From positions 1 to 53,296 of the forward strand of contig JADGQX010000005.1 of NCBI GenBank assembly GCA_017881445.1: a DNA stretch of 53,296 nucleotides, in the 5' to 3' direction. The position numbers and the translations under genes are program-made. The stretch is from Gemmatimonadota bacterium. GTDB taxonomy: Bacteria; Gemmatimonadota; Gemmatimonadetes; Longimicrobiales; RSA9. Positions 1-53,296 of the stretch are shown piece after piece. Position 1 is the stretch's first letter, and each line of letters opens with the position of its first letter. The notes below the pieces were generated by a model, which did no database searches, was not told the DNA's origin, and worked only from the letters and a program-made list of their open reading frames with translations.

Positions 1-310
1 CTCCGGCGGCACCCTCGACATCCGCTGATGCCTGGTACGTGAAGACCGAGTCGTGCAGCTCGGTGGTGACTCCCGTCCCCAGGTCCGTGAGCGTCACGGC
101 AGCGTGGAGCTTTTCGGGGGTCGTGAACACGGACTGCCGGACGGGGGTCACGCGAATCCACTGCGTGTCGGCGGACGCGTTCAGGTACCCGAAGATCGAG
201 AAATGCAGGTCGCTGGGCTTGAACGGCTCGAAGGTGTCATGGCAGCCGGAGCCGACGCTGAGGACGAGCAGAGCGAGCGCCAGGGTGCGCCCTGCCGGAG
301 CTGTGGTCAT
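1..310 (-). CDS. Lipoprotein partner of TonB-dependent receptor, N-terminal part only
   Basis: The 5' end of a minus-strand gene that runs off the left edge of the window; about 103 residues are visible. It opens MTTAPAGRTLALALLVLSV, a hydrophobic signal followed by SGC, a plausible lipobox with Cys near residue 24, so an outer-membrane or periplasmic lipoprotein is likely. The ATG overlaps the receptor stop codon as ATGA, so translation should be coupled to the receptor. Receptor-plus-lipoprotein pairs of this kind are known in Bacteroidota (for example DUF4249 proteins), but I cannot assign a family from this fragment. The body contains short hydrophilic beta-like segments and no recognisable catalytic motif. 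Function unknown; a ligand-capturing partner of the receptor is inference. Confidence 0.75.
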   Translation of the reverse strand, partial: MTTAPAGRTLALALLVLSVGSGCHDTFEPFKPSDLHFSIFGYLNASADTQWIRVTPVRQSVFTTPEKLHAAVTLTDLGTGVTTELHDSVFTYQASADVEGAAG

Positions 311-2682
311 CGGGCCGCTCCCGGTGACTTCAACCGAAGTGACAGGTACGGCACCAGTGGCAGCTGATCGATGCGCCGGCCTGTATAGATGTCGTAGAAG
401 AACATGTTGCGCCGGTCGTACGCGTTGATCACCCCGAGTTGCACGTCGAGAGTGCCCACCTTCGATCCGAAGCTCCGTTTGAGCGACGCGTCCAGCCGGT
501 GGACCGCCGGCATCTGGCCCTGGTAGGGCCGGTCGAGGAGCATCCGTGTGGTTCCCTGCCGGGCCCGGACATCCTCCAGGTCGTAGGGGATGGCCAGCCA
601 GTCGTCGATCCCGATGGGCTGGGTGTAGGGCAGCCCGCTGCCGAGCTGCCACCCCAGTTGTGCCGTGAAACGACCGATGTCCAGACTCGCCGAGGCATTG
701 ACCGTGTGCCGCCGGTCGTGAGGAGGATTGAACGATTGCACGGAATCCCCGAACCAGGCCTCGAAGTTGTCCTGGGCCGTCCTGTAACGGGTCTGCCCGT
801 AGCCGTAGCCGATGAACGCGTAGAGCGGTTTCCGGTCGTACTCGACCCGCGCGTCCACTCCGTACACCTGCCCGCTGGCCTTGGCCAGCACGGTGTTGTA
901 TTGCACGACCGCCTGCCACGCGGGCACCGGCACGTTCCGCAGACGCTTGTAGTATCCTTCGATCGACCAGTGGAGCGCCGACGCCAGCGTCTGCTGCCAA
1001 CCGAGCAGCAGGTGGGCTGCCTCCATGGGTTTCTGGTCCCGGGGGCGCATCCAGGCGACGAAGACGGACCCGGGGTCGCGCGTGTCGCTCACGCCGGTCA
1101 GGTCCTGATGGTACAACCCGAGTGCGGCCGTGACCTCCTCAGTCGAGCGGCCCCATGGTTGCCAGCTCGCGCGCAGGCGCGGCTCGAGCCTGGCGCCAGG
1201 GGCCAACATCACGACCAGCCCCGGGGTCACGGCCAGGCGGCGGGTAGGTTTCAGCCCGGCCTCGAAGTACGCGTTCGCGCCGAAGATGAAGTCGTCGTCG
1301 GCACGCACGTTCGAGAAGAGCTCCGCCAGGTCGAAGGTGGGCGTCTCCAGGTAGATATGGTAACCGGCCTCGATCGGAACCGCCCCGATCATGTTGGTGG
1401 TGTGCGCGTCGTGGCTGAGGCGAGAGACACTCGAACGGAATGCCGATGAGCCCCTCGTGACGGCGGCGTTCCGCACGGTCGAGTATCCGAAGTTCACCTC
1501 GAGCAGGCGGAGCATGGGCTCGTTGAAGAGCATGATGCATCGCCCTCCGGCAACGACGTTCTCCCAGCTCACCCGGGAAACGGCGTCCTCGGCGTCCATC
1601 CGCCCCTCGTCGTATGTGCGGAGTCCCATCACCGAGCAGCGCGAGCCCTCCTCGAGGAACGAGGTGAGCTTCAGGTACTGACTCTCGAATGCCAGGGGCT
1701 GCCGTTCGCCCGTGAGAAATGAGCTCGTCGGATCAATGAGGGACTTGCTGGCGGACGCGATCCACGATGCCTGCCCCCCGTTGAGCGGCCCCTCCACCGT
1801 CGCCTCGGCGAGGAAGGGACTCGCGCCTGCGGATGCTTCGTACCGGGACCGGTTCCCGCTGCGCATCTGGACGTCGAGGACCGAGGAGGTCCGGCCGGAG
1901 TAGCGGGCGCCGTAGCCGCCGGCGTAGAAGTCGGCATCGGCCACCAGCTCCTGGGGAAAGGCAGAGAAGAAGCCGACGATGTGGAACGGCTGGTAGATCA
2001 GGGTACCGTCCACCAGTGCCATGTTCTCGGCCGGAGTGCCGCCCCGGATGAAGAGCTGGCCGCCCCGGTCTCCCTCGGCTACCACCCCCGGCAGCCGCTG
2101 CAGGTAGGCGGCCACGTCCCCGCTCGCCGCCGGCATAACGACCCGCCCCAGGTCTGCCGGCCGGATCCGCTGCCGGCCCAAGGTGCGCTGGGTGGCTCCG
2201 CCGGCCTGGTCCTGCACGACGATGCCTTCGAGCGCGACGGGACTCACCTCGAGCTCCACGCTGATCGTCCGCTGCTCCCCACCCGCGAATACGATCTTCT
2301 CCTCGTGCGGGACGTACCCCAGGAAGGCGATGCGGAGAACGTAGGCTCCCGGGTCGATCAAGCCGATCTGGTAAAAGCCGTTCCGGTCGGTGAGCGCCGA
2401 CCGCTGGCCGCCCCCGGCGGCGTCGAGGACGACGCTGGCACCCTGCAGGAAGTTGCCGTTCGACGAGTCGGTGACGATCCCGTGGAGCGAAGCCGGAGCC
2501 ACAGCTCTGGCTGGCGCTTTGGGCCTGACAACGGTTGAATCCCCAGCGGCAACCTGTGCGCCCAGCGGAGCCCGGGCACCGGACAGCACCGCCATCAGCG
2601 CGACAGCCCAAAGCGCACGCAGGGCCATGGCAAAGTCGCGCCCAACGGGCACGATGGCCTCCCGCAACTCCATCCGCCTCAT
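307..2682 (-). CDS. TonB-dependent outer-membrane receptor with N-terminal carboxypeptidase-regulatory-like domain
   Basis: About 791 residues. The open frame extends upstream to 2811, but ATG at 2682 (MRRMELRE) is preceded by GGAG at good spacing and leads into a signal peptide (MALRALWAVALMAVLSGA). After the signal comes a carboxypeptidase-regulatory-like beta-sandwich (HGIVTDSSNGNFLQGASVVL, roughly residues 60-145), then a plug domain with RLPGV and FIRGG motifs at roughly 180-290, and a beta-barrel ending in a short aromatic-containing strand. The domain order matches CarbopepD_reg-type receptors, but it is shorter than typical SusC (about 1,000 residues) and has no SusD beside it. The next gene, a lipoprotein, overlaps by ATGA. 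The substrate is unknown. The distance from the xylan locus gives no reason to call it xylan-specific. Confidence 0.9.
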   Translation of the reverse strand: MRRMELREAIVPVGRDFAMALRALWAVALMAVLSGARAPLGAQVAAGDSTVVRPKAPARAVAPASLHGIVTDSSNGNFLQGASVVLDAAGGGQRSALTDRNGFYQIGLIDPGAYVLRIAFLGYVPHEEKIVFAGGEQRTISVELEVSPVALEGIVVQDQAGGATQRTLGRQRIRPADLGRVVMPAASGDVAAYLQRLPGVVAEGDRGGQLFIRGGTPAENMALVDGTLIYQPFHIVGFFSAFPQELVADADFYAGGYGARYSGRTSSVLDVQMRSGNRSRYEASAGASPFLAEATVEGPLNGGQASWIASASKSLIDPTSSFLTGERQPLAFESQYLKLTSFLEEGSRCSVMGLRTYDEGRMDAEDAVSRVSWENVVAGGRCIMLFNEPMLRLLEVNFGYSTVRNAAVTRGSSAFRSSVSRLSHDAHTTNMIGAVPIEAGYHIYLETPTFDLAELFSNVRADDDFIFGANAYFEAGLKPTRRLAVTPGLVVMLAPGARLEPRLRASWQPWGRSTEEVTAALGLYHQDLTGVSDTRDPGSVFVAWMRPRDQKPMEAAHLLLGWQQTLASALHWSIEGYYKRLRNVPVPAWQAVVQYNTVLAKASGQVYGVDARVEYDRKPLYAFIGYGYGQTRYRTAQDNFEAWFGDSVQSFNPPHDRRHTVNASASLDIGRFTAQLGWQLGSGLPYTQPIGIDDWLAIPYDLEDVRARQGTTRMLLDRPYQGQMPAVHRLDASLKRSFGSKVGTLDVQLGVINAYDRRNMFFYDIYTGRRIDQLPLVPYLSLRLKSPGAAR

Positions 2683-3317
2683 AGACGCTCCCGTGCGGGC
2701 GCCGGAAGGCCGGTGGCCAGAAATGCAGGCACCGCACGGGTGACGGCAGATGATCTCGTCACCTGAATCTACCTCGCCGGGTTCGTTACTACTTGAAGGA
2801 GAAAATTCCATCCTGAATCAGGTTCAGACTCAGGCAGGATGCGCGGAAGGATTGCCCCGGGTCAAGAGTCTGCTTCGCGCGTTCGCGCGCGCCCGCGCGA
2901 CCCTCCCGGACAAGCGCGGCCCTGCCGGTGCGGATGGAGGACAGCGACGTGCCCGGGGGGAGCAGAACGCAGGACCGAAACAGGACGGCAGCGGCATGGG
3001 GTCAATTGCTGAACTGCCGGAATCGGTCCGGTCGGTCTACGGAAGTCGAGGATGGCTATCTACCTATTCCGGGGCGGCCGGGTCTGGGGATGAGCTCAGC
3101 GGAGGATATCATTCGTGAGCACCCCATGGAGGACCTGCACTTCGACCTGTTCGCCGAAGACTGGCACCGCCGGATCGGGCGGGCCTGACGAGTGTGGACC
3201 TGTAACAGGCTGGCAGGACTGTGGCTCGCGGGCGGGTGGACCTAGCGGAACGGACACCGGGGAACGGCAGTGGTGGACCACCGTTCCCCGAGCTTGTGAG
3301 GCGGAACTGGCTACGAG
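2683..3317. other. 635-bp intergenic region
   Basis: No credible gene. Short open frames on both strands lack ribosome-binding sites and family resemblance. The right half is 3' of the small lipoprotein gene; the left part must carry the promoter of the TonB receptor operon. A CG-rich alternating tract lies at about 2875-2897. I could not identify -35/-10 elements. Confidence 0.6.
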
Positions 3318-3689
3318 CTATTGCTTATCGCGGCCGGGAGTCAGGCCCGTCGTGCTGGCCACATAGATCACCCCGCGCGCGTGGGCCAGCAGCCCCCAGC
3401 GCGCGGAGGCTTCGATGCCGTTGTAATAGTGGATGTAGGCGATCCCTTCGGTGGACATGTACTGCAGTTCCGCAACCCCGCCCACCTCCACTCCGTCGCG
3501 GAAGACTCCCGAGGAGAGCCACTTCGGACGCATCGTCTGCACCGCCAGGAACGCGTTCGAGAAGTTGGCGATCTGCTCGCCGGAGAGCTCGTTCAGATCG
3601 GCGGGGCCTGCTTGGATGGCATGTCCGCTCGCGCACGCCGCGAACATGATGAGGATCGCGGGTAGCACCAACCACATCCAGCGCTTCAT
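3318..3689 (-). CDS. Small plug-like lipoprotein (paralogue 1 of 3)
   Basis: 123 residues. Signal MKRWMWLVLPAILIMFAAC ends in a lipobox (FAAC), so the mature protein is a small lipoprotein of about 105 residues. The body has an N-terminal helix-like region with MRPKWL, then GVEVGGVAELQYM, YIHYYNGIEASARWG and GVIYVAS. The same order occurs in two tandem genes near 32.3-33.3 kb in this window (LRSNWL, RLGG/SxxEL, YIRH, ATxRWG, GVIY/F). The distal half resembles the conserved end of a TonB-receptor plug (strand, acidic/aromatic turn, YG, GVIxVxT). That resemblance is pattern recognition and not a verified homology. The gene stands alone: about 630 bp separate it from the receptor and 311 bp from the kinase. 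Function unknown. Confidence 0.8.
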   Translation of the reverse strand: MKRWMWLVLPAILIMFAACASGHAIQAGPADLNELSGEQIANFSNAFLAVQTMRPKWLSSGVFRDGVEVGGVAELQYMSTEGIAYIHYYNGIEASARWGLLAHARGVIYVASTTGLTPGRDKQ

Positions 3690-4001: not shown

Positions 4002-5594
4002 TCACGTCCGCACCTCAACAACTCTGGCCTCCGCTGCCAGGCGCCGGAGCGATGGGAGCACGTCGCGGGCGGCGACTGCATCCGCCTCAGGATCACCGAA
4101 GCCGAAGTACAGCTTCCGGAACAGCGGATAGAGCTGCTGGTACACGCCGTGCGCCACCGGATCGGGCTCTACCGTACGGTATTTCGGACAGAGGGCGTCC
4201 TGAGCTTCCTCGATGGTGCTGAAGGTGCCGGCCGCCAGGAAGGCGAAAATGGCCGACCCCAGGCTGGTGACCTCGTCCACCGGCACCAGCACCGGCATGC
4301 CCAGCACGTTGGCATAGATGCGGTTCAGAGTATCGTTCTTCTGGGGAACACCGCCGCCATTGATGACCCGCCGGATGGGCACGCCGTATTCCGCCATCCG
4401 CTCGAGAATGATGCGGGTGTGGAAGGCCGTGCCCTCGATGGCGGCGAAAAGCTCGTCCTGCGCCGTGTGGGTGAGATTCCACCCGATCGTCAGGCCTCCC
4501 AGCGCCGCATTGACCAGGACTGTACGGTCTCCGTTGTCCCAGGTCAGGCGCAGCAGCCCGCTTTGAGCCGGGCCGTAAGCTTCCAGGCCGCGCGACAGCT
4601 CGGCCACGGTCGAGCCGGCACGCCGTGCAATAGCCTCGAAGATATCGCCCGTTGCGGACAGTCCGGCCTCGATGCCGTAGTAATCCGGATGGATCGATCC
4701 CTTGACGATGCCGCAGACTCCGGGGATGCACTCGATATCCCGGGCTATCGCCATGATGCAGGTCGAAGTGCCCACCACATTGACGACATCGCCTTCCCGC
4801 ACGCCCGCCCCGATGGCGTCCCAGTGCGCGTCGAAGGCGCCGATGGGGATGGGTATGCCAGCGCGCAGGCGCAACTTGGCAGCCCACTCGGGACAGAGGT
4901 GGCCGGCGATCTGGTCCGAAGTGCCGTATCGCCCCCGCAGCTTGTCGTGGGCTCCGGCCAGCAGCGGATCCACTTTCAGCAGCAGCTCTTCCGAAGGCAG
5001 TCCGCCCAGCTCGGGATTCCACAACCATTTGTGGCCCATCGCACATGCACTGCGCGGCACGCGGGCGGGGTCCGTGATGCCGCACAGCAGCGCGGCCACC
5101 ATGTCGCAGTGTTCGAGCACGGCGGCGAGACGTCCTCGGCGCTGAGGGTTGTTCCGCAGCCAGTGAAGCAGCTTGGAGAAGCCCCACTCAGAGGAATACA
5201 CGCCGCCCGACCATTGCAGGGCTTCCAGCCCCTCGCTCCGGGCAACCGAGGTAATCTCGGCGGCCTCCCGCTTGGCCCGGTGATCGCACCACAGGTAGTA
5301 GTCGTCGAGCGGCTGCAGGTTCTCGTCCACGGGAACCATGGTGGTCCCGGTCGTATCGACTGCGATCGCTTCGACTTCCTGGCCGGACAGTCCAGCCTGA
5401 TCGAGCGCGCCGTGTGTCGCCTCGACCAGGGCCCGCATGTGCTCCTGGTGTGATTGGGTGGCATGGTCCGGGTCGTCCTTCCTGCGCACCAGCGGATACT
5501 CCGCCGCCGCCGAGCCCAGCCTGCCGCGAACGCTGTCCACGATCGATACCCGTACGCTCAAGGTTCCGAAATCGACTCCCGCCACTATGGACAT
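4002..5594 (-). CDS. araB: FGGY-family carbohydrate kinase, ribulokinase type
   Basis: 530 residues, close to the 560-570 usual for AraB. FGGY kinases phosphorylate a sugar with ATP in the cytoplasm; ribulokinase makes ribulose 5-phosphate. Visible landmarks are the N-terminal phosphate loop (VAGVDFGTLSVRV), the second-strand AVDTTGTTMVPVD, the substrate-site region GAFDAHWDAIGAG, the ATP-site GTSTCIM and the C-terminal GGLTIGWNLTH and NGGGVPQKN. GGAG lies 8 bases before the ATG. Two genes lie upstream on the same strand, a sugar permease 40 bp away and a zinc dehydrogenase; no araA isomerase or araD epimerase is present. It could therefore serve L-ribulose or D-ribulose/xylulose made by the dehydrogenase. 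The family is clear and the exact pentulose is not. Confidence 0.88.
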   Translation of the reverse strand: MSIVAGVDFGTLSVRVSIVDSVRGRLGSAAAEYPLVRRKDDPDHATQSHQEHMRALVEATHGALDQAGLSGQEVEAIAVDTTGTTMVPVDENLQPLDDYYLWCDHRAKREAAEITSVARSEGLEALQWSGGVYSSEWGFSKLLHWLRNNPQRRGRLAAVLEHCDMVAALLCGITDPARVPRSACAMGHKWLWNPELGGLPSEELLLKVDPLLAGAHDKLRGRYGTSDQIAGHLCPEWAAKLRLRAGIPIPIGAFDAHWDAIGAGVREGDVVNVVGTSTCIMAIARDIECIPGVCGIVKGSIHPDYYGIEAGLSATGDIFEAIARRAGSTVAELSRGLEAYGPAQSGLLRLTWDNGDRTVLVNAALGGLTIGWNLTHTAQDELFAAIEGTAFHTRIILERMAEYGVPIRRVINGGGVPQKNDTLNRIYANVLGMPVLVPVDEVTSLGSAIFAFLAAGTFSTIEEAQDALCPKYRTVEPDPVAHGVYQQLYPLFRKLYFGFGDPEADAVAARDVLPSLRRLAAEARVVEVRT

Positions 5595-32328: not shown

Positions 32329-32760
32329 ATGACAAGCCATGCGGAGATTGGTGGAGGGCGGGAACGCCGGCGGGCGCCAGGGCGCGGGCTGCCCGCCCTG
32401 CTGGTCGTGCTGCTGGGCCTGGGTTGTGCCGGTTCGGCCCGGCCCGGGCGGACGCACCCGGACCTGCAGGTGATCGACCAGGCCGATCTCGTGGCGAATC
32501 ATTTCCTGGACGCCTACGAGGCAGTGGAAGCGCTGCGCTCGAACTGGCTGAATGAGCGGCCGAACAGCCTGTTGGCGGCGAGCAAGAGCATAGTGCTGGT
32601 CTACTACGACAACATCCGGCTGGGCGGGGTATCGGAGTTGCGCGGCCTGAGACTCGAACCCGTGGTCTACATCCGGCACTTCAACGCGCTCGAGGCGACG
32701 GAGCGCTGGGGCGTCGGTCACACGCAGGGTGTCATCTATATCTCCACACACCCGGACTGA
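32329..32760 (+). CDS. Small plug-like lipoprotein (paralogue 2 of 3)
   Basis: 143 residues from ATG 32329 with GGAGGTGGAG upstream. A charged lead is followed by LPALLVVLLGLGC, whose LGLGC is a lipobox, so a lipoprotein of about 110 mature residues. Body: ALRSNWLNERPN near residue 65, VLVYYDNIRLGGVSELRG, YIRHFNALEATERWG and GVIYISTHPD at the C-terminus. It is closely related to the next gene (shared LRSNWLN, ATxRWGVGHxQGVI and terminal HPD) and more distantly to 3318-3689. The terminal half looks like the end of a TonB-receptor plug domain without a barrel. It is 31 bp after the esterase and 117 bp before its paralogue. Function unknown. Confidence 0.8.
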   Translation: MTSHAEIGGGRERRRAPGRGLPALLVVLLGLGCAGSARPGRTHPDLQVIDQADLVANHFLDAYEAVEALRSNWLNERPNSLLAASKSIVLVYYDNIRLGGVSELRGLRLEPVVYIRHFNALEATERWGVGHTQGVIYISTHPD

Positions 32761-32877
32761 GGCCAGGCGGGCGCCGGACCCCTGGGGCGCTTGCAGCTGC
32801 GGCAGGGTTGCGGCCCATGGGAGAGCGGCGCATTCTCCAGTGACTGCCTCATTCCTCACTCGCGCTGAAGGCGTGCC

Positions 32878-33267
32878 ATGAGAACCCGCCTGGGACCGTT
32901 GGCCTGCGTGACTCTGCTCCTGCTGGTCGGCGCGTGCGCTTCGACATTGAGGCGAAGCGGGCGGGACGCGGAGCTGCTGACGCAGCAGGAGCTGCTGGAC
33001 AACAACTTCATCAACGTGTTCGACGCAGTGACGGCCCTGCGCTCGAACTGGCTCAACGTCCGGCCCAACACGCTGGGCATGTCTGGGCCTCAGGCAGACG
33101 TGGTGGTCTACTTCGAGCAGACGCGGCTGGGCTCCCCGGCGGAGTTGAGGAACATCAGCGTGCGGGACATCGCCTACGTCCGTCACTACGACGCTGTTTC
33201 GGCCACGCAGCGCTGGGGGGTGGGGCACTCGCAGGGCGTGATCTTTGTGTCGTCGCATCCGGACTGA
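32878..33267 (+). CDS. Small plug-like lipoprotein (paralogue 3 of 3)
   Basis: 129 residues. The signal MRTRLGPLACVTLLLLVGAC ends in lipobox VGAC. Body: LTQQELLDNNFINVFDAVTA, LRSNWLNVRPN, VVVYFEQTRLGSPAELRN, YVRHYDAVSATQRWG and GVIFVSSHPD. Same domain plan and end point as paralogue 2, so a tandem duplication is likely. The first Asp-Asn pair (LLDNNFIN) is close to paralogue 2 (LVANHFLD). It ends 39 bases before a strong terminator, closing this transcript. No enzyme motif is visible. A periplasmic or outer-membrane binding role, perhaps with TonB-dependent receptors, is conjecture. Confidence 0.8.
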   Translation: MRTRLGPLACVTLLLLVGACASTLRRSGRDAELLTQQELLDNNFINVFDAVTALRSNWLNVRPNTLGMSGPQADVVVYFEQTRLGSPAELRNISVRDIAYVRHYDAVSATQRWGVGHSQGVIFVSSHPD

Positions 33268-43699: not shown

Positions 43700-44857
43700 C
43701 TACCTGTGCACGGCCCTTTCGCCGGCGGCGCGGACCACGGCGAAGAACGCGGGCTTCGGCTGGCGCTCGCGGTCGAAGAGCAGCGGGTACGCCGTGCGTC
43801 CCCGCATCGGCCAGTCGTTGAGCCAGGAGTCCCGGTCCGACACGCCCCAGAACGTCACCCTGCTGACGGTACCGCGATACTTCATGAAGACGCCGAACAG
43901 CTCGGCGTACCGCCGGGCCAGCGCCTGCTGCTGGGCATCGGGCAGCCCCTTCACGTAGGGGTTCGCCGAGTCGCGCCGCGCCACGGTCATGTTGACGTCC
44001 GCCCCCCGGTACATCGAGGCGGGCGGGAGCACGTCCAGGTCCAGTTCCGTGATCATGACCTTGACGCCCAGCGCCGCGAACGCGGCAATGGTCGAGTCCA
44101 CGGCGGCCACGGAGGGCCAGTCCATCTTGTAGTGACCCTGCGTGCCGATGCCCGACACGGGGATCCCCTGCGCCCGCAGCTCCTTGACCAGCTTGACGGC
44201 GCCGGCCCGCTTGGACGCGTTCTCCAGCGAGTAGTCGTTGTAGTATAGCTCGGCGGCGGGGTCCGCGTCGTGCGCGAAGCGGAAGGCGTCGGCGACGTAC
44301 TCCGGGCCGATGATCTTCAGCCACGGCGACGCCCGCAGCGTGCCGTCCTCGTTCAGCGCCTCGTTGACCACGTCCCAGCCCTTGATCCGGCCCTTGTAGC
44401 GCCCGACCACAGTGAAGATGTGGGCGCGCATGCGACTCAGCAGCGTGTCCCGGCTCACCGGCTGGCCGGCGGAGTCCTGGAACACCCAGCGCGGGGTCTG
44501 GGCGTGCCACACCAGCGTGTGCCCGATGACCTTCATGCCATTCTTCTGGCCGAAGGCTACGTAGCGGTCCGGCGCGGCGAAGTCGTACTTGCCCGGCAAC
44601 GGGTGCACTCTCTCCCACTTCAGCACGTTCTCCGGGGTCGTCGTGTTGAAGTGCTTGCGGATGAGGACGACGGCCTGAGAGTCCCGGCCTTCGAACTGAT
44701 CGGGGTTCAGCGCCGCGCCCACCAGGAACGCGCCCCTCAACGCGTCCTTGAGCGCGGGCACGGCCGCCTGGGCCCGCAGGGCGCCGGGGGCGGCGCCCCC
44801 GGCAAGCAGGGCGGCGAGGAGCAAGGCGCCGGGGCGCCGGTGTCTCCGGATCGACAT
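43700..44857 (-). CDS. GH10 endo-beta-1,4-xylanase
   Basis: 385 residues from ATG 44857 with GGGAGGG upstream; signal PGALLLAALLAGGAAPGALR, ending AQA. Single GH10 barrel without a binding module. Motifs: LVGAALNPDQF, FNTTTPENVLKWERVHP, GHTLVWHAQTPRWVF, WDVVNEALNEDG with acid/base Glu 166, YYNDYSLENASK, GIGTQGHYK and VMITELDLDVL with nucleophile Glu 271, then TFWGVSDRDSWL. All catalytic residues are present and the length is normal. It hydrolyses the xylan backbone with retention; exported. Its start is 14 bp after the stop of the GPH transporter gene, and the FadR-type regulator follows 51 bp downstream, so all three lie on one transcript. Confidence 0.95.
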   Translation of the reverse strand: MSIRRHRRPGALLLAALLAGGAAPGALRAQAAVPALKDALRGAFLVGAALNPDQFEGRDSQAVVLIRKHFNTTTPENVLKWERVHPLPGKYDFAAPDRYVAFGQKNGMKVIGHTLVWHAQTPRWVFQDSAGQPVSRDTLLSRMRAHIFTVVGRYKGRIKGWDVVNEALNEDGTLRASPWLKIIGPEYVADAFRFAHDADPAAELYYNDYSLENASKRAGAVKLVKELRAQGIPVSGIGTQGHYKMDWPSVAAVDSTIAAFAALGVKVMITELDLDVLPPASMYRGADVNMTVARRDSANPYVKGLPDAQQQALARRYAELFGVFMKYRGTVSRVTFWGVSDRDSWLNDWPMRGRTAYPLLFDRERQPKPAFFAVVRAAGERAVHR

Positions 44858-44870
44858 GTCGCGCCCTCCC

Positions 44871-46319
44871 TCACGAAGCCGTGGGAAGCGGCGTCTGCAG
44901 GCGCCGGCGCTCGAACAGCTCGTCGGTGATCCGGACTTCCGCCTCACGGTTGATGCTGTAGAAGAAGAGGATGCCCGCGCAGATCGCAAAGGTGACCGCC
45001 GGGAAGATGCTCATGGTCAGGCGAATGCCGTCCAGCGCGTGCGGCGTCTGGGGCACGTTGGGGACGTAGCCGTAGACCGAGAGCACCCAGCCCGTGATGG
45101 CGCCGCCGAAGCCGAGGCCGGCCTTGAGCGCGAACACGATGGCCGCGAACACGATCCCCGTCGCCCGGCGGTGGTTCTTCCACTCGGAGAAGTCCGCCAC
45201 GTCTGCCATCATGGCCCACAGCAGCGGGATCGTGAAGCCGTAAACGAACTGACGCACGATCTCGCTCGCGAACATGAGCCCGATCCCCGCGGGCGGCAGC
45301 ACGAGGAACGGCAGGCAGAACACGGCGGTCCCGAGCAGCCCGGCGATGAAGACGTTGCGCTTGCCGAACCGCGTCGCCAGCGACTTGGAGAAGAAGATGC
45401 CTATGATCGTCGCCGTCGTGCCCAGCACGTTGAAGAGGCTGAACGCCAGGGTGGCAGCGTCGGTGGAGCCGAGCAGCTTCTTCAGCGCCGGAGGCAGGCC
45501 GGCGACCGTGGCGGCCACGGCGTCCGGGTTGACGTAGTACTTGAAGTAGTACAGCACGTCGCTGCCGCGCATCGCCAGGGTGATGAAGAGCACGAGCGTG
45601 AGCGCGAACATGGCGAGCCACGGCCCGTTCCGGCTCAAGTCAGCGAAGTGCTCGCTCACCTTCGCCTTCTGCTCCTTCGGCGGCAGGATCCGCTCCTTGG
45701 TGGTCGCGAACGTGATCAGGAAGAGGACCACGGCCAGTGAGGAGAAGATCGCCATCGTGTACTTGTAGCCGACCGCGTTGTTGCCGTGGCCGAAGTAAAC
45801 GACCAGCGGCAGGGCCAGCCCCTGGATGATCATCTGCGCGATCATGGCGAAGACGAAGCGGTACTGCGAGAGGCTCGTGCGCTCGGCCAGGTCGCCCGTC
45901 ATGACGCCGCTCAGGGCGGAGTACGGCAGGTTGTTGGCCGAGTAGACCGTCATCAGCAGGATGTAGGTCACGTAGGCGTAGACCAGCTTGCCCGATGGGC
46001 TGAAGTCGGGCGTCATGAAGGTGAGGAAGCCCATGATGCCGAAGGGCACGGCCGTCCAGAGGATCCAGGGCCGGAACTTGCCCCAGCGGGTGTTGGTCTT
46101 GTCCGCGATCACGCCCATCATCGGGTCGAAGATCGCGTCCCAGAAGCGCACGACGAGCAGCAGCGTGCCCGCGGCGGCCGCGGTGATGCCGAAGGTGTCC
46201 GTGTAGAACACCAGCTGGAACATCACCATCGTCTGGAAGATGAAGTTCGCGGCGGTGTCGCCCAGCGCGTACCCCACCTTCTCGGTGACCGGAAGCTTCT
46301 CGAGCTTTTCTGGAGGCAT
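44871..46319 (-). CDS. GPH-family (MelB/XynP-type) glycoside symporter
   Basis: 482 residues, 12 predicted membrane segments. Begins EKLPVTEKVGYALGDTAANF, a signature of the glycoside-pentoside-hexuronide:cation symporters; also FWDAIFDPMMGVIADKTNTR and WGKFRPWI with the conserved loop, and YALGD near the N-terminus. XynP-like members import xylo-oligosaccharides or xylosides with sodium or protons. AGGGGCG precedes the ATG. It sits between the GH3 gene (25 bp away) and GH10, so it likely imports xylo-oligosaccharides made outside by GH10 for the signal-less GH3 to cleave in the cytoplasm. The inner-membrane position is inferred from the family. Confidence 0.9.
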   Translation of the reverse strand: MPPEKLEKLPVTEKVGYALGDTAANFIFQTMVMFQLVFYTDTFGITAAAAGTLLLVVRFWDAIFDPMMGVIADKTNTRWGKFRPWILWTAVPFGIMGFLTFMTPDFSPSGKLVYAYVTYILLMTVYSANNLPYSALSGVMTGDLAERTSLSQYRFVFAMIAQMIIQGLALPLVVYFGHGNNAVGYKYTMAIFSSLAVVLFLITFATTKERILPPKEQKAKVSEHFADLSRNGPWLAMFALTLVLFITLAMRGSDVLYYFKYYVNPDAVAATVAGLPPALKKLLGSTDAATLAFSLFNVLGTTATIIGIFFSKSLATRFGKRNVFIAGLLGTAVFCLPFLVLPPAGIGLMFASEIVRQFVYGFTIPLLWAMMADVADFSEWKNHRRATGIVFAAIVFALKAGLGFGGAITGWVLSVYGYVPNVPQTPHALDGIRLTMSIFPAVTFAICAGILFFYSINREAEVRITDELFERRRLQTPLPTAS

Positions 46320-52130: not shown

Positions 52131-53296
52131 TTACCAGCCCGTGTTCTGCGGATACGGCGTCCCGGTCACGCCATTGATCTGGGCCTGGGGGATCGGCCGG
52201 TAGTAGTGCTTGTCCCCGATGTTCGGCCGGGCAACCGCACTGTACTGCTTGATCCGGGCCAGGAAGAAGTCCTTCCCCGGCCGATGGAGATCGTCCCACC
52301 GGGTGAACTCGCCCGACATCTCGCGCTCGCGCTCGTCCATGATGAAGTTGATGTTCATCTGGCCGGCGTTCACGAGGATGGCGGGATCGCCCTTGTGGCT
52401 CGTGGCGCACAGCGGCGGACCGGCGCAGGCGGCGCGCACGCGCAGGACGTTGATGTCCGTCGCGGCCACCGCGGGCTGGTTCAGCCCGACAGCGGCTTCC
52501 GCCGCGATCAGGTAGGTCTCGCCCAGGCGGTACATGTAGCGGTCCTTGCCCCCGTTCGCATCGGACAGGCCGCCGATGCGGAGGTTGTCCTGGAACTTCT
52601 TGAGCGTCGGGTAGTGCTCGTAGCCGTATATGCCCTTGGCGTCGTTGTTCAGACCGCAGTCCGCCGTCGGGTCCGTCGTGCAGGGCGTCATGATGCGGTA
52701 CGCCTTGGACTGCCGGTAGCTATCGGGCACCTGGTAGCCCACGTACACCACGGTGGTGTCGGATCCCGCGCCCGCGCCGATGAGCGAGCCGCTCGCGTCC
52801 TTCAGCGTGTTGCGGGCTACGATGGCCGCGCCGCTGGTGCAGTTCGGGCAGGTGCCGGCGGCGTTGTTGCCGTTGGCGTTGGCGAACCAGACCGTCTGGA
52901 AGCTGGCGTCGAAGCGGGTGTCGAGCACGTCCACGCCCAGCCCCGGCGTCCCGGCGTAGCGGGTCTGGTTGAAGATGGCGATCGCCGCCGGGGTCGGACG
53001 GATCCGGCGGAACGGCCGGCCGTCGTCCAGGGAGCGGTTCATCCCCGCCGCCCAGCCGCTATTCGCATCGTAGTGGCTGAGGAAGATGAGGTGGAAGTAG
53101 TTCGTCTCGCCGCCGCCGTTATACTGCGACACGAGGTAGGAAAACTGCACCGGCATGATGACTTCCGTGTTCTGCCTCGACCAGTTCGTCAGGTCGCAGT
53201 AGCCCTGACGGCCCGGGTCCGCGGCCGCGGCCGCCCGGTGCGTGCCGCACCAGAGGTCCGCGAAATTCGCCACCAGTGAGTACTTGCCGGAATTGA
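52131..53296 (-). CDS. SusD/RagB-family outer-membrane glycan-binding lipoprotein, C-terminal part
   Basis: The last 388 codons of a gene that starts beyond the right edge. SusD proteins lie on the outer membrane and hand glycans to the SusC channel. Features: GGGETNYFHLIFLS, the late-domain segment RYMYRLGETYLIAAEAAVGL, LRVRAACAG, NINFIMDEREREMSGEFTRW then DDLHR (the typical SusD end motif, usually FLxERxRELxxEGxRWxDL) and YYRPIPQAQING. The stop is TAA-like at 52131 with the C-terminus ending PYPQNTGW. Its SusC partner is expected upstream outside the window. As head of the minus-strand arm with GH10, GH3 and deacetylases, it probably binds xylan or xylo-oligosaccharides. Confidence 0.9.
   Translation of the reverse strand, partial: NSGKYSLVANFADLWCGTHRAAAAADPGRQGYCDLTNWSRQNTEVIMPVQFSYLVSQYNGGGETNYFHLIFLSHYDANSGWAAGMNRSLDDGRPFRRIRPTPAAIAIFNQTRYAGTPGLGVDVLDTRFDASFQTVWFANANGNNAAGTCPNCTSGAAIVARNTLKDASGSLIGAGAGSDTTVVYVGYQVPDSYRQSKAYRIMTPCTTDPTADCGLNNDAKGIYGYEHYPTLKKFQDNLRIGGLSDANGGKDRYMYRLGETYLIAAEAAVGLNQPAVAATDINVLRVRAACAGPPLCATSHKGDPAILVNAGQMNINFIMDEREREMSGEFTRWDDLHRPGKDFFLARIKQYSAVARPNIGDKHYYRPIPQAQINGVTGTPYPQNTGW

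Follow-up and report, generated by a model that had tools for sequence, protein, structure and literature searches.

Small Gemmatimonadota lipoproteins whose mature part is predicted to be a shortened TonB-receptor plug

Three short open reading frames in a 53,296-nucleotide stretch of DNA from a Gemmatimonadota bacterium (contig JADGQX010000005.1 of assembly GCA_017881445.1, positions 1 to 53,296; hereafter the window) belong to a real, selected and lineage-specific family of lipoproteins. Judged from profile comparisons and structure models, the entire mature domain is a shortened plug of TonB-dependent receptors that lacks two loops as well as the TonB box and the barrel, and the closest plug type is that of SusC/RagA receptors. 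For about half of the members sampled, the gene lies near one for a SusC-type receptor, often directly beyond susD.

Results and Discussion

Three related lipoproteins in the window

The three proteins are encoded as follows.

32329..32760, plus strand: P0001, plug-like lipoprotein, 143 aa; lipobox ...LLGLGC, Cys codon at 32425
32878..33267, plus strand: P0002, plug-like lipoprotein, 129 aa; lipobox ...LVGAC, Cys codon at 32935
3318..3689, minus strand: P0003, plug-like lipoprotein, 123 aa; lipobox ...MFAAC, shortened RG loop

The initial annotation of this DNA had described three related lipobox proteins of 123-143 residues, and these are indeed present: inspection of each frame reveals an ATG start, a signal peptide and a lipobox. 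Local alignment of the mature parts gives a score of 296 for P0001 and P0002, and of 143 and 133 for P0003 against these two, far above the best score of 49 reached in 1000 shuffles. The motifs listed as shared are recovered overall, with small deviations: in P0003, MRPKWL stands for LRxxWL, ASARWG for ATxRWG and GVIYVA for GVIx(V/I)S, and P0002 carries the variant YVRH. The RG..S loop of P0003 is also shorter by about 15 residues.

A reduced plug domain

The AlphaFold2 model of P0002 (pLDDT 85.6, core >90) has plug topology, and that of P0003 (pLDDT 83.5) has the same topology. When the P0002 model was compared with the PDB using Foldseek, all of the 50 matches listed were TonB-receptor chains, the best being a dextran SusC (8aa4, probability 1.00 at a modest E of 1.7e-3). 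With the P0003 model, too, only TonB receptors occur among the matches listed, at weaker E-values of 0.13 and up. At the profile level, hhalign aligns the family with eight SusC plugs (97.8%, E 1.1e-12), relative to which the family has two gaps, of about 14 residues ahead of the RG strand and of about 12 past the DG turn. Together, the models, the structural searches and hhalign bear out the earlier proposal of a plug fold without a barrel. The proposal had likened only the last half of the proteins to a plug, which is too narrow: the entire mature domain aligns to full plugs.

Family-level searches point the same way. Pfam Plug (PF07715) matches 9 of 27 family members, with a best value of 1.1e-6; a paralogue in the window's genome (C20) scores 27.0 bits against the curated cut-off of 23.9, and three members match the NCBIfam SusC/RagA model. 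Searched against PDB sequences, the family profile retrieves mainly TonB receptors and aligns with the BtuB plug over its whole length (E 0.03). Taken singly, P0001, P0002 and P0003 gave no Pfam match at E 10, and NCBIfam and PADLOC scans of these three alone gave nothing useful. A single-sequence PDB search with P0002 returned nothing beyond weak matches to methyl-coenzyme M reductase (E 0.3 and above), a likeness that we judge to be chance because the family profile retrieves TonB receptors instead.

With the plugs of TonB receptors (PF07715; SusC/RagA, TIGR04056) the family thus shares the fold, the order of secondary structure, full-length alignment to SusC and BtuB plugs, and the end motif L..I...DI..I..L.A..A(T/S).(Y/W)G.....GVI.V.T. 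It differs from them in consisting of stand-alone lipoproteins of 123-146 aa that have no barrel, TonB box or N-terminal extension, and in the LRPxWL and R(W/Y)GxGH residues peculiar to it. The reading frames of P0001-P0003 stop at the plug, and the C-terminal 22-stranded barrel is absent from the same chain. The domain begins at the plug start, past where a TonB box would lie, and inspection of the alignments (A1, A3) found no GYG or TonB-box-like segment in the short linker from the Cys to the (L/I)(I/L)T.E(E/Q)(I/L) start.

This last observation bears on the roles first proposed. A barrel-less plug might act as a decoy that titrates TonB, and a second class of lipoproteins in the same genome does carry a SusC-like 'DSxSxGYG' before a full plug. 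The family of P0001-P0003, however, starts past the TonB box position and has no such segment, and for this reason we reject the decoy for this family as very improbable. Binding or plugging of receptor barrels and an adaptor role, also part of the first proposal, stay conjectural.

A family of the Gemmatimonadota

A single-sequence search finds eight family copies in the window's genome, including the three described here, in agreement with a 27-sequence profile (A1) whose next-best matches in that genome fall in the plugs of SusC-type receptors and in four further small lipoproteins of plug type. By the same kind of search, 55 of 61 related genomes hold copies; in the six genomes without any, Plug matches number 10-23, where the median is 26. 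The number of copies per genome follows the number of Plug matches (Spearman 0.63; 0.44 as a partial correlation on genome size).

In a scan of a genome collection, nearly all named relatives came from Gemmatimonadota metagenome-assembled genomes (MAGs). The family occurs in 132 of 200 sampled Gemmatimonadota genomes, as against one of 149 genomes sampled from the phylum of the sole outlying match, which supports the earlier suggestion of a lineage-specific expanded family. The outlier (L043) comes from a Vicinamibacterales MAG; because its contig is 6.7 kb long and no second match turned up among the 149 genomes, misbinning or transfer is the probable cause.

In a quick tree, which is indicative only given short sequences and few columns, one branch separates 70 family members from 33 SusC plugs and eight other plugs (SH-aLRT 90). 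Among four orthologues, omega is 0.09-0.14, which indicates purifying selection. Decaying fragments of TonB receptors could likewise present a plug without a barrel, but the proteins have a lipobox of their own, are constrained in sequence and form one phylum-wide clade; purifying selection and conservation lead us to reject decay, which is hardly credible.

In two further genomes, single open frames of 833 and 659 aa, stop to stop, hold two family matches each (G062:C87:494004-494771 and G218:C134:4584-5285), and these are possibly proteins with two plug-like domains.

Linkage to susC and susD

For 70 family genes we examined the surrounding DNA, up to 20 kb in each case, with 20 random regions of closed genomes as the control. 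A SusC-type receptor, sought with SusC-like seeds that other receptor types may escape, lies within 10 kb of 34 of the 70 family genes, compared to one of the 20 random regions (Fisher p 2e-4); from plug density, about 0.15 per region is expected. Restriction to closed genomes leaves 8 of 18 family genes near a receptor versus the same 1 of 20 (p 0.007). Many of the linked loci are from related genomes, so these events are not independent.

SusD genes, detected with confirmed SusDs as queries since the window's own SusD alone misses most, lie within 1 kb of 20 of the 70 family genes, and in each of the 10 loci scanned the family gene is separated from that of SusC by one for SusD. In locus L111 and on contig C111 of the window's genome, susC, susD and the family gene are contiguous on one strand; in L115, L182 and on C20 of the window's genome, the family gene is divergent from susC. 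Together with the plug models, this linkage leaves neither an unrelated fold nor a missing tie to TonB-rich genomes. The tie itself stands in part: copies track Plug counts and genes cluster with receptors, but for about half of the members sampled, no SusC-type receptor lies in the 10 kb to either side. The unlinked members sampled have varied neighbors, some of them cytochromes, peptidoglycan enzymes or oxidoreductases.

These unlinked genes are what a different function would lead one to expect, namely that of a periplasmic or outer-membrane lipoprotein, descended from a SusC plug, that binds or senses a small ligand or another envelope protein and shares only regulons with SusCD. The near-invariant W, R, R(W/Y)G and H residues, which are family-specific, could form its binding site. 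We nevertheless regard this reading as quite unlikely, as in many genomes the gene is found immediately beyond susD or in divergent orientation to susC.

Probable membrane face

In Bacteroidetes, lipoproteins are directed to the surface by an acidic motif that immediately follows the lipobox Cys, and the export motif of F. johnsoniae was derived using SusD homologues (PMC5080379). An acidic residue occurs at +2 to +7 after the Cys in 33 of 33 neighboring SusDs and in 11 of 55 family members, and the share of D/E at +2 to +4 is 46% versus 1%, a bias to which the N-terminal fold of SusD may add. The residues after the Cys are A/S/G-rich in family members. Because most members do not have the acidic, surface-export-like motif of the SusDs, the family probably faces the periplasm if the Bacteroidetes rule applies in Gemmatimonadota.

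The additional lipoproteins of SusCD systems (SusE/F, SGBPs, and those of the levan and dextran utilisomes; PMC7618045) are likewise lipoproteins encoded next to susC-susD, and the operon position of the family would suit a surface-exposed extra subunit of the utilisome, a glycan-binding lipoprotein like SusE/F. However, the acidic post-Cys motif of all 33 SusDs is mostly absent from the family, and the predicted fold is a plug, probably oriented toward the periplasm, rather than an Ig-like or carbohydrate-binding one. A surface subunit is therefore improbable.

Genes around P0001-P0003 and a fusion to GH115

The neighbors of the three genes are the following.

307..2811, minus strand: TonB-dependent receptor, CarboxypepD_reg + Plug, 834 aa, downstream of P0003 on the same strand
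4002-5594, minus strand: FGGY sugar kinase, on the other side of P0003
31353..32297, plus strand: putative esterase (PF00756), just upstream of P0001
33462..36530, plus strand: GH115 alpha-glucuronidase family protein, the next gene after P0002
36527..42817, plus strand: GH9, GH43 and GH127 glycosidases, after GH115
43700..44989, minus strand: GH10 xylanase
52131..53273, minus strand: SusD/RagB-family protein at the window end, in the same CAZyme cluster as P0001 and P0002

P0003 thus sits between the kinase and the CarboxypepD_reg/Plug receptor, all on the minus strand. By content, going by family names, the locus of P0001 and P0002 would be of the glucuronoarabinoxylan type. Positions 29134-53296 form a large xylan-type locus of GH115, GH9, GH43, GH127, GH10, GH3-like and esterase genes, which also holds an MFS sugar transporter, a GntR-like regulator and SusD.

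Seven relatives have surroundings of the same kind (GntR, GH10, SusD, GH3 and MFS xylan genes), and a GH115 gene directly follows both P0002 and the member in locus L039. In L044:7908-11249, the family domain, lipobox included, is fused in frame through a Pro/Thr-rich linker to a GH115 alpha-glucuronidase and stands where the GH115 signal peptide would be. These arrangements favor a periplasmic docking adaptor, in which the plug fold, reused as a module for protein interaction, holds periplasmic glycan-processing enzymes (GH115 and others) near the outer membrane and the SusC exit, outside the barrel. On the other hand, only a single fusion was found, most SusCD-linked members are without a demonstrated enzyme partner, and the keeping of a plug fold, and not any other, points to a barrel as the partner. 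We consider the adaptor unlikely, though it is the main rival to the accessory plug set out below.

A possible accessory plug for SusC-type transporters

Tentatively, and at less than an even chance, we favor an accessory plug or plug-return factor that acts at the periplasmic mouth of SusC-type transporters. The lipid anchor would tether the plug domain to the outer membrane on its periplasmic side, which we infer because the residues after the Cys are rich in Ala, Ser and Gly, without the acidic surface-export motif. The retained barrel-facing surface of the plug could dock at the periplasmic mouth of the 22-stranded SusC-type barrel. When TonB pulls the receptor's own plug out, the lipoprotein would limit leakage through the wide pore, aid the return of the plug, or both. 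The paralogues may be specialized for different receptors, with P0001 and P0002 serving the glucuronoarabinoxylan system to which the SusD at the right end of the window belongs. In its fullest form, the family would be a third lipid-anchored component of Gemmatimonadota SusC-type importers, a periplasmic mini-plug that guards or resets the barrel in trans, with paralogues matched to receptors; this wider version we hold to be doubtful.

Plugs acting apart from their barrels have precedents. The plug of FhuA was reportedly supplied in trans to a plug-less receptor in an engineered system by Braun et al. in 2003. Closed, empty SusC complexes shed the whole plug in detergent, and their reset has been called unclear (PMC7782687). 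For plug-less FpvAI, a plug supplied in trans restores function (PMC10994204). As in the family, that plug is separate from the barrel, and there it is able to act on it; it was engineered, whereas the family consists of natural, reduced plugs on a lipid anchor and exists beside receptors that keep their own plugs. The isolated plug of FepA is unfolded (PMC11658791), and a stand-alone plug would therefore need adaptation; the loss of the loops might be such an adaptation. The two missing loops contact barrel or substrate in plugs, so the domain may not be able to seal a barrel. The GH115 fusion, for its part, fits the adaptor at least as well as the accessory plug.

If the accessory plug proves true, a mini-plug acting in trans would be an undescribed step of TonB-dependent transport. 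For the sealing of SusC channels during plug removal, and for the return of the plug, a natural separate plug offers a testable handle. The family also shows that plug domains can lead an independent life. In the open-access literature, which omits most subscription papers, we found no description of stand-alone plug lipoproteins, and the novelty of the family is provisional. The plug fold is known; what would be new, equally provisionally, is a mini-plug that is separate by nature, carries a lipid anchor, occurs across the phylum and is encoded beside susCD.

Other barrel-less plug proteins

Plug proteins without a barrel number at least 17 in the window's genome (G000) and fall into three kinds, each of which is separate in the quick tree. 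Besides the family there are four lipoproteins (C174, C224, C183 and C96; loci L061, L062, L073 and L074) with a full SusC-type plug and the TonB-box-like 'DSxSxGYG'. These would be better candidates for TonB binding or for decoys. The C224 gene lies directly after a SusD gene. In another locus (L127:9811-10794), the gene for a full-plug lipoprotein stands directly before a family gene on the same strand, and the 20 kb fetched hold no SusC-type receptor. The third kind comprises five proteins of about 300-350 aa (C252, C358, C60, C216 and C364; L186-L190) that join a CarboxypepD_reg-like domain, recognized by eye, to a plug without a barrel. Several of these five have paired cysteines near the DG turn and before the last strand.
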